Assembly: GCA_013003715.1 (NCBI GenBank)
Contig: JABDIN010000088.1
Location: forward strand, 1 to 64,000
Length of the DNA stretch: 64,000 nt
DNA from: Desulfobacteraceae bacterium
GTDB lineage: Bacteria; Desulfobacterota; Desulfobacteria; Desulfobacterales; Desulfosarcinaceae
Direction: 5' to 3'
Positions 49,324 through 51,397 of this stretch are shown in pieces. Under the pieces are notes generated by a model. It was not told the origin of the DNA, searched no databases, and saw only the letters and a program-made list of their open reading frames with translations. Position 1 is the stretch's first letter; the number at the start of each line of letters is the position of its first letter. Both the position numbers and the translations under genes were made by a program.

Positions 49324-49779
49324 ATGTCCGTTGAAACCGGTACGGTCGAAAAGGTTGAAAACGGTTGGGCATGGGTAAAAGCGCAACGCAAAAGCGGTTG
49401 TGCCAGTTGCTCCGGCAAGGATCATTGTCATAGTATGGGCGGCAGCCACATGCTGATCCAGGCTAAAAACAATGCCGGGGCGGTGCCGGGGGATGAGGTT
49501 GAAGTTTTCATCAGCACCGCCATTAAGATGAAGTGCATGTTCAGTCTTTATATCGTACCGGTGTTCGGGTTAATGGCCGGGGCATTTTCCGCCGAAGGCT
49601 TGTCCAACTGGCTGGGAATGAATCATTCATTCGGGATGGTTGTTTTCAGCGTTGGCGGCCTGGTGGCAGCCTACATCATCGTTAAGGTCTATGCGGACCG
49701 CCTTTCGAATCGCGGTGCATTGTCCCCGGCGGTGAATCGGGTCCTTCGCCGGCATGCACCACTCACGCAATCCGGGTAA
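49324..49779 (+). CDS. rseC: SoxR-reducing system protein RseC family
   Basis: A 151-residue membrane protein: N-terminal soluble domain with a Cys cluster C-x2-C-x5-C (GCASCSGKDHCHSMG, about 25-39), then two helices (about 72-92 and 98-120). RseC/MucC proteins act with Rnf/Rsx complexes to reduce SoxR or modulate sigmaE in other bacteria. The Rnf genes are not in this window. The family call is firm on the Cys cluster plus helix pair. Confidence 0.85.
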   Translation: MSVETGTVEKVENGWAWVKAQRKSGCASCSGKDHCHSMGGSHMLIQAKNNAGAVPGDEVEVFISTAIKMKCMFSLYIVPVFGLMAGAFSAEGLSNWLGMNHSFGMVVFSVGGLVAAYIIVKVYADRLSNRGALSPAVNRVLRRHAPLTQSG

Positions 49780-49987
49780 ACCAGGAAAATCGAGATTGAT
49801 TTTTCGAGCGCATATGAGGTTGTTCTTTATCTTCCCGGTAAGTGGTAAGCTGACACGTGCATTTTAATGTCAACTACCAAAGCCCAGATTTCAACTGCGG
49901 GCCCCCTGATGAAAATGAACATACGGTTTTTGCGGCTGCGGACGGATGTGACGGAGCATTGAAGGTATGTGAGATCATGGAGTTGTG

Positions 49988-50818
49988 ATGAATCTAAGAA
50001 GGATGAAGAACCGTCTGATTGCCGTTGCAGCGAGCAGGCTGCCGGACCTGGCCCAAGGATTGTCCGCGCGTTACGCGCCGGTGGAAACCATCGATATTCC
50101 CTGGGTGAAAAACCTGAAACCCCTTGATCAATGCCGGGTCGCCATGGTCACCACGGCAGGCCTGCATCACTCTCACCAGACCCCGTTTGATATGACTGAC
50201 CCGGACGGTGATCCGACATTCCGCCGGATTGAATCCCCTACCATTATACAGGATTATCTCATCACCCATGATTATTACAATCATAAGGATGCGGAGCGGG
50301 ATATCAATGTGGTGTTCCCGATCCAACGGTTAATGGACATAAACCGGGCCGGGGTGATTAAAGGGGTGGCCGATAGTCACTACAGTGTCATGGGACATAT
50401 CGATGGTCGCCATATCCGGACGCTTGTTGAAGACACCGCCCCGCAAATCGCCCGGCATCTGGTATCCGACCGGGCCGATATCGTTCTGCTCACCCCTGGC
50501 TGAGGTATCTGTAATCAATCCGTGGGATTGATTCAACGCGCGATCGAAGCCGCCGGCATACCCACCATCGGGATCTCCATAGGCCGGTCCTACACCGAAA
50601 AGGTAAAACCGCCCCGGACCGTATATTTAAAATGGCCGTTCGGACATCCCCTGGGGGAACCATTCAATATCAATCAACAGGCCGCGGTGTTGGAAAAAGC
50701 CGTTGATGCGCTCTATGCGATCAAAACCCCCGGTGGCATCATCGACCTGCCGTTCCGCTGGCGTCGTGAAACCTATCCTGAACCGTTCTGGATGCGGATG
50801 AAGGCGTTGGCCAATTAG
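49988..50818 (+). CDS. selenoprotein of the glycine/sarcosine/betaine/D-proline reductase B family
   Basis: One 276-residue protein, interrupted by an in-frame TGA at 50501-50503 that is read as selenocysteine (Sec172). Upstream residues (AMVTTAGLHHSHQTPFDM, then INVVFPIQRLMDINRAGVIK and ADIVLLTPG) and downstream residues (GICNQSVGLIQRAIEAAGIP, then TIGISIGRSYTEKVKPPR) together match the selenoprotein B family; the redox motif is U172-G-I-C175. A perfect hairpin with a GTG loop begins 9 nt after the TGA, as in bacterial SECIS elements. ATG 49988 has GGAG 5 nt upstream. Members use substrate-derived or thiol redox chemistry with selenium, but no other reductase subunit (grdA/grdE, prdA) is near, so the reaction is unknown. 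Automatic callers would split it in two. Confidence 0.9.
50513..50533 (+). promoter_or_regulatory. SECIS hairpin for selenocysteine insertion
   Basis: AATCAATCC (50513-50521) and GGATTGATT (50525-50533) are perfectly complementary, with a 3-nt loop GTG whose first G is 19 nt after the TGA, within the spacing known for bacterial SECIS elements. It is inside the coding region, as expected for SelB-dependent decoding. Confidence 0.85.
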
Positions 50819-50893: not shown

Positions 50894-51397
50894 TCACTCT
50901 TTCGTGTGCATGATCAAGTGGCCCAAGTCCGGGAAAATCAAGGCTCTGCAGGCGAGTTGGACCGCTTTGAGGCTGCCGGGCATGCAAAACACGGTGGTTT
51001 GTTTGATGATGCCGGCTGTGGCGCGAGATAAAATGGCTGCGGAATCTATCTGCTCATAGCTGAGCTGCGCGAAAATGGGACCGAAGGCGGTGAGTTCCTT
51101 TTTAAAATAGGGGCGAACGGCTTCGATGGTAACGTCTTTCGGACTGAGGCCGGTGCCGCCGGTGATCAACAGGGCGTGGGGGGAAAGGGATTCGATCACG
51201 TCCAGCAGGCAAGTGCCGATGGCATCTTCGGCATCCGTTACCACCTGATGAAATACAATGGTGTGGCCTTCTTTCTCTGCCCGTTTACGAATCCAAAGTC
51301 CGCTTTTATCATCTTTGAGTGTGCGGCTCGTCGATACGGTGATAATTCCGATATTCAGATTTTTCGCTGCTTTTGATCTATGAATACTGGTGCCCAT
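50894..51397 (-). CDS. moaB: molybdenum cofactor biosynthesis protein MoaB/MogA family
   Basis: A 167-residue MoaB-type protein that adenylates molybdopterin. Motifs: IGIITVSTSRTLKDDKSG (about 16-33), LITGGTGLSPKDVTIEAV (about 78-95) and the C-terminal FCMPGSLKAVQLA. Found alone, convergent with the selenoprotein gene. The cofactor is needed by formate dehydrogenases and other enzymes of such organisms. Confidence 0.9.
   Translation of the reverse strand: MGTSIHRSKAAKNLNIGIITVSTSRTLKDDKSGLWIRKRAEKEGHTIVFHQVVTDAEDAIGTCLLDVIESLSPHALLITGGTGLSPKDVTIEAVRPYFKKELTAFGPIFAQLSYEQIDSAAILSRATAGIIKQTTVFCMPGSLKAVQLACRALIFPDLGHLIMHTKE

Follow-up and report, generated by a model that had tools for sequence, protein, structure and literature searches.

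The locus at positions 49988–50818 raises two linked questions: is the TGA that interrupts its reading frame read as selenocysteine (Sec), or is the gene broken, and, if the codon is decoded, what kind of enzyme would result? We analysed the locus within the window, that is, a stretch of 64,000 nucleotides from contig JABDIN010000088.1 of a Desulfobacteraceae bacterium. The frame opens with ATG at 49988, carries TGA 50501–50503 in frame as codon 172 and closes with a TAG stop at 50816–50818, giving 276 residues when TGA is counted as Sec. The features of the locus are listed here by window position.

49324..49779, + strand: RseC/MucC-family gene (PF04246, 3.6e-30), about 208 bp upstream of the PrdB-like gene; listed as a neighbour
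49979..49982, + strand: GGAG, a putative Shine-Dalgarno-like element seen in the sequence, 5 nt 5' of the ATG
49988..50818, + strand: PrdB-like selenoprotein gene, 276 aa plus TAG stop
50501..50503, + strand: TGA Sec codon, U172 of the UxxC redox motif U172-G-I-C175; aligned TGA in homologues
50510..50512, + strand: TGT codon of Cys175, the presumed resolving cysteine of UxxC; invariant in homologues
50513..50533, + strand: bacterial SECIS hairpin, stem 50513–50521/50525–50533, apical loop GTG 50522–50524
50894..51397, − strand: MoaB-like molybdopterin-binding gene (PF00994, 5.9e-25), convergent and downstream; listed as a neighbour

The MoaB-like neighbour scored 134.8 bits with TIGR02667, for which the cut-off is 222.4. 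Searches for a phage origin of the PrdB-like gene gave no match in 50,697 phage records and no confirmed match in viral contigs.

A preliminary description of this DNA had proposed a selenoprotein split by the in-frame TGA. The frame was confirmed, and conservation of TGA at the aligned codon across loci settles that it is a genuine Sec codon. Around codon 172 the window protein reads TPG-U-GIC, and 30 of the 31 loci matched by it (window included) have an aligned TGA. The 31st locus, L040 (G008, C99:26604–26837), is a gene remnant in which similarity stops before the Sec codon and the frame enters the next gene. In a larger set of 60 loci, from which L040 and L059 (a duplicate of the window) were excluded beforehand and in which L051 and L058 encode identical proteins, TGA was found in 59. 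Leaving aside the window and one annotated PrdB, 57 of the 58 other homologues keep TGA, and the exception has Gly. This exception is L063 (G388, C12:67270–68052), where GGA replaces TGA while the SECIS hairpin is intact; the Gly codon may stem from a miscalled base in a G-rich run or reflect a mutation or loss of Sec of recent date. Two alphaproteobacterial homologues, L133 and L134, have Cys in the Sec column. The homologues thus show the Sec or Cys at position 172 that the preliminary description had told readers to look for; it had also held that homologues ending at this codon, or with neither residue there, would point to a nonsense mutation, and this is not the picture that emerged. The cysteine three residues on, C175, is invariant in 29 of 29 members of an alignment of homologues (A1) and in three groups of sequences (45/45, 4/4 and 14/14). 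Across 43 homologues of the UxxCN group to which the window protein belongs (the partial L053 omitted), identity to the window protein averaged 47% up to the Sec codon and 57% beyond it, so the downstream part is conserved at least as well. The reading as a pseudogene, with a TGA due to nonsense mutation or sequencing error and a hairpin formed by coincidence, could appeal to the Gly codon of L063 next to a surviving hairpin and to the broken remnant L040, but the column conserved in 59 of 60 loci already refutes it, the higher identity past the TGA speaks against it too, and we regard it as extremely improbable.

A Sec codon also needs its decoding apparatus, and the preliminary description had suggested a search for selA, selB, selC and selD elsewhere in the genome. 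All four were found. The draft genome of the window (G000; 5.5 Mb in 115 contigs, 97% complete) encodes a tRNA-Sec with the anticodon UCA (71 bits), SelB (379.7 bits), SelA (601.3 bits) and SelD (363.9 bits). The lack of selB or selC that had been named as a sign of a nonsense mutation was therefore not observed, and this complete machinery counts against a pseudogene. SelD itself (L018, G000 C8:18649–19569) has its own in-frame TGA within KTCGUAAK, which makes it the second predicted selenoprotein of the genome.

We then come to the hairpin. A perfect 9-bp hairpin with a GTG loop, 9 nt past the TGA, had been reported and taken for a SECIS element, and it is indeed present at 50513–50533: its stem is a perfect run of nine Watson-Crick pairs that starts after 9 nt (50504–50512), and the distance from UGA to the loop is 18 nt. 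The folding energy was −10.0 kcal/mol (50501–50540), corresponding to a z of −1.5 against shuffles for this cut, and to −0.3 and +0.4 for two longer ones. Energy as sole support was dropped, since shuffles fold almost equally well, and conservation and a count of geometry were used instead. While the energy alone would be compatible with a coincidental hairpin next to a broken codon, such hairpins are rare in the window: of the 2,497 TGA triplets on both strands, just 4, among them this TGA, are accompanied in SECIS geometry by nine or more uninterrupted Watson-Crick pairs, and 1 has such a stem at exactly the position seen here. With G-U pairs allowed the count rises from 4 to 27. If a perfect stem of 8 bp or more is required together with 20 or more open codons upstream and 40 or more downstream, this TGA alone qualifies in the window; four others do so only when G-U pairs are counted. 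Published limits for bacterial SECIS elements, as given in the available part of PMC13188914, are a loop of 3–9 nt, a stem of 4–16 bp, G in the first two loop positions, 16–37 nt from UGA and a minimum free energy of −7.5 kcal/mol or lower. With its 3-nt loop opening with G, its 9-bp stem, the distance of 18 nt and −10.0 kcal/mol, the window hairpin lies within all of these quoted limits.

Comparison of the 45 TGA loci of the window's UxxCN group (42 distinct rows, 48 columns) showed that the hairpin is shared. Counted outward from the loop, contiguous pairs number at least 8 in 37 of the 45 loci and 6 or 7 in five, and the loop-closing pair is absent in three; the loop starts with GT in 44 loci and with GGT in one. 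The outermost, ninth pair forms in only 7 of the 45, so the conserved stem is 8 bp long and the ninth pair of the window is a local extra. Among the 42 distinct rows, 88.6% of cells are paired, but 57.9% still pair when the partner is slid by −1. Cells changed on both sides numbered 13 (shuffled mean 3.2; 0 of 500 shuffles as high), and the covariation score of 0.196 exceeded all shuffles. Two of the five measures fell within the shuffles: the number of pairs changed on both sides (2) was matched or exceeded in 226 of 500 shuffles, and that of further pair types (5) in 488. Compensatory changes are synonymous at the protein level, with Gln CAA going together with Leu TTG and Gln CAG with Leu CTG (4-0-0-19 in distinct sequences, Fisher p 1.1e-4). 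A tree-aware analysis left just 2 (pair 18/28) and 4 (pair 15/31) supported contrasts, of which 2 of 2 and about 3 of 4 run in the predicted direction, too few to reach significance; since so few independent contrasts lie on well-supported branches, p-values that ignore relatedness are optimistic. Outside the UxxCN group the stem persists with very different letters, for example in L034, L036 and L044. The assignment of the hairpin as a SECIS element thus stands, backed by the published constraints and the compensatory synonymous changes. As judged from sequence comparison, UGA codon 172 is a selenocysteine codon that is accompanied by a SECIS element and a complete Sec machinery, and not a nonsense mutation.

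To which family does the protein belong? It matched PF07355 (GRDB) with 29.7 bits, above the Pfam gathering score of 22. With TIGR04483 (PrdB) it reached 165.8 bits, below the equivalog cut-off of 300, while 400.9–424.7 bits were obtained for three annotated PrdBs, encoded on Terrisporobacter, Enterococcus and Ligilactobacillus plasmids. Six Sec-containing members of the group or its vicinity that were scored, window included, gave 152–179 bits, and the Cys homologue L133 gave 87; the model matches all 29 members of A1. Scores with the GrdB models were 41.6 bits for TIGR01918 (cut-off 65.45) and 40.4 bits for TIGR01917 (cut-off 602.2), and the close relatives L048 and L024 exceeded the TIGR01918 cut-off with 79.9 and 65.9 bits. 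The UGSC family model NF041046 aligned weakly to residues 149–196 (E 0.007; 16.4 bits versus a cut-off of 125) and matched one of the 29 A1 members at E 0.001.

A quick tree, from which L053 (partial) and L044 (long and divergent) were omitted, as they were from the residue table, placed the window protein among 45 UxxCN sequences, L063 included. This group (support 76) lies beside true PrdB (joint support 92), with UPxC sequences outside. The window shares its Sec column in U172-G-I-C175 with annotated PrdB, and ten residues are common to the 45 group members, 4 PrdBs and 14 others: P38, H94, D105, P111, C175, R184, E187, G190, R210 and G219. The group also has a signature of its own: all 45 members carry W39, Y96, H99, H137, N176, G180 and H220. 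At Y96, H99, H137, N176, G180 and H220 the 4 PrdBs have G, N, a gap, H, V and A, respectively; W39 is also W in three of them.

The distant PrdB-like sequences of the UPxC kind comprise L041–L043, L033–L039, L045, L046 and the plasmid-borne L133 and L134. They have Sec in the sampled phylum and Cys in two alphaproteobacterial plasmids, where they are labelled 'selenoprotein B family protein'. Some genomes, G004, G009 and G010 among others, carry the UxxCN-group and UPxC kinds together.

An AlphaFold2 model computed from the window protein and seven relatives had a mean pLDDT of 75.8 and a pTM of 0.78. Foldseek returned no PDB match for it at E 0.001 (best 0.038), and the matches from VIA-align 2 were all of a generic alpha/beta kind, the best being the lac repressor core at Z 8.1; neither fold nor function was deduced from these comparisons. 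Searches of PDB chain sequences remained at chance level, with best E values of 0.62 for the window protein and 0.03 for the A1 profile. By its sequence, the predicted protein is a PrdB relative within the PrdB/GrdB superfamily. The kinship to GrdB/PrdB put forward in the preliminary description holds, with PrdB and not full-length GrdB as the kin.

The partner subunit is considered next. We take PF09338 to be the pyruvoyl-subunit family of PrdA and GrdE. It had no match in the window genome, whereas the same search found it in 17 of 395 genomes of the phylum. It was likewise absent from 28 of the 30 best-matching genomes, the window's included (G055 and G387 have it), and from 81 of the 97 genomes with any family match; loci were read from the best 30 of these 97 (29 plus the window's own). 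The PrdA model TIGR04480 matched in 0 of the 30 family genomes, in a search without a positive control; as the model was silent in controls too, PF09338 with its 17 positives among 395 genomes was used instead. Near the window gene itself no prdA occurs among the neighbours, while in three annotated Firmicutes plasmid loci prdA and prdB are clustered together. The earlier statement that no other reductase subunits lie beside the gene therefore holds, and PF09338 was not found genome-wide either.

These data bear on the reading that the protein is a genuine D-proline reductase PrdB whose PrdA is encoded at another genomic site or did not make it into the assembly. In its favour are an identity of 37% to annotated PrdB across 80% of its length, the TIGR04483 match of all A1 members, the shared Sec column and ten common residues, and a tree that does not reject a grouping of the window with true PrdB (AU p 0.44). 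A missing PrdA could in principle sit in a gap, given a genome that is 97% complete in 115 contigs. Against it, PF09338 has no match in 28 of the 30 best-matching genomes, the window's among them, TIGR04480 adds 0 of 30 with the limitation just given, the score is 166 bits for a cut-off of 300, and the prdA-prdB cluster of the three plasmid loci has no counterpart near the window copy. We consider a genuine PrdB very unlikely.

The absence of a PF09338 match, together with a score under the PrdB equivalog cut-off, leads us to infer a stand-alone reductase that is not a D-proline reductase. With a probability of roughly 0.7, the selenoprotein would act on its own and independently of a pyruvoyl group, with Sec inserted by means of the SECIS element and a selenol/thiol couple in the UxxC motif. 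In D-proline reductase, as described in PMC10298544, the bond between C-alpha and N of D-proline is cleaved in a pyruvoyl adduct; the selenocysteine and the pyruvoyl group reside on separate proteins. If the pyruvoyl subunit is indeed lacking, this route would be closed to the window protein. From what is known of the family, SelB with Sec-tRNA(UCA) would decode UGA 172, and U172-G-I-C175 would provide the selenol/thiol couple, which makes for the simplest working model. The selenolate may attack an electrophilic bond of the substrate, after which a Se-S bridge with C175 would form and presumably be reduced by the cellular dithiol system. As substrate class we propose small electrophilic, disulfide, persulfide or metal-thiolate compounds.

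Gene neighbourhoods were compared as well. Among the loci listed in a 47-locus set (the window is L132, and L051 overlaps L093), no operon shared by the entire group was found. In 8 of the 47 loci (L047–L050, L099, L111, L118 and L120; Pfam-checked in four of the eight), which come from three tree branches, a two-domain rhodanese is encoded 7–290 bp upstream in the same orientation. In at least 3 of the 47 (L098, L105 and L123), a copper/heavy-metal P-type ATPase is encoded 20–51 bp upstream on the same strand. Looser same-strand arrangements occur at L097 and L110, one with a small gene between and one 712 bp away, and in at least two more loci the ATPase is on the opposite strand; its identity was NCBIfam-checked in two loci. 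Each adjacency arises from several tree branches, with counts taken without a genome-wide background rate. At the window copy neither gene adjoins.

Could the protein then use its selenol in the homeostasis of sulfane sulfur, selenium or copper, with a rhodanese serving it or a metal exporter coupled to it? The rhodanese and P-type ATPase loci would fit this role, as would H99, H137 and H220, which are invariant in the group and absent from the 4 PrdBs. Yet most of the 47 loci, like the window, have neither gene, the ATPase is on the other strand in two, rhodaneses and P-type ATPases are common genes, and the adjacency was spotted post hoc without a background count, so that we find such a role unlikely. 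A broader version takes the group as a widespread set of mislabelled single-subunit selenol reductases that have the PrdB fold without a pyruvoyl partner and serve a redox chemistry linked to sulfane sulfur or copper, with H99, H137 and H220 possibly forming a metal or substrate site; we offer it tentatively and would sooner doubt it than adopt it. Most likely the group works as a pyruvoyl-independent selenol/thiol reductase.

How much of this is new? PrdB-like selenoproteins have been catalogued from marine and deltaproteobacterial sources since 2005–2006, and the window gene adds a member. In the available parts of the respective papers, 42 PrdB-type UxxC sequences are given for the Sargasso Sea (PMC1088965), 235 Sec-containing and 110 Cys-containing PrdB-type sequences for the GOS data (PMC2398784), PrdB-type UxxC selenoproteins for Anaeromyxobacter and Geobacter (PMC1794560) and 131 PrdB-type selenoproteins for sequenced bacteria (PMC5029168). 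The preliminary description had called reaction and partners undescribed from the window. The family itself is on record, since selenoproteome papers list it under 'proline reductase PrdB', a reaction that is putative for the group. In the CC-licensed PMC texts consulted, we found no report of PrdA being absent alongside deltaproteobacterial PrdB-like selenoproteins. The present analysis adds two points: in the sampled phylum a pyruvoyl subunit goes undetected in most carriers of the group, and the group shows a residue signature of its own. For both reasons the name 'proline reductase' should not simply be transferred, and the label is probably wrong for the window's group. If the group is pyruvoyl-independent, many PrdB entries may misname the reaction, and counts of D-proline reduction among marine and sediment bacteria would be too high; if its members are mislabelled throughout, the 'proline reductase' count of environmental selenoproteomes would largely be that of another enzyme. 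The role of the selenol in the PrdB fold would also be simpler to study in a PrdB-like selenoprotein with a single subunit.

Among known systems, the UGSC family (seleno)proteins (NF041046) share the U-G-x-C motif and the weak alignment at 149–196 (E 0.007), but the window protein has 16.4 bits where 125 are required. The selenoprotein B of glycine, sarcosine and betaine reductase, GrdB (PF07355, TIGR01918), has the UxxC motif in common with the window protein, which is homologous to the C-terminal half of GrdB. The window protein differs in its 276 aa versus a model of 431 positions, in a score of 41.6 versus 65.45 bits and in that no GrdE-type protein was found. PrdB of the Firmicutes D-proline reductase (TIGR04483) has a similar length, the same Sec column, UxxC, about 37% identity and the ten invariant residues. 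In contrast to it, the window protein scores 166 versus 300 bits, has no adjoining prdA and no PF09338 in its genome, reads C-N instead of C-H after UxxC and has Y96, H99, H137 and H220 of its own. The selenoproteins catalogued as 'proline reductase PrdB' from the Sargasso Sea, the GOS data and Anaeromyxobacter and Geobacter (PMC1088965, PMC2398784, PMC1794560) were, in the available parts of these papers, counted under the clostridial function with no partner subunit examined. They share with the window protein the label, pfam07355, the UxxC motif and an origin in deltaproteobacteria and marine samples, and, likened by description, the window protein is probably one of them.
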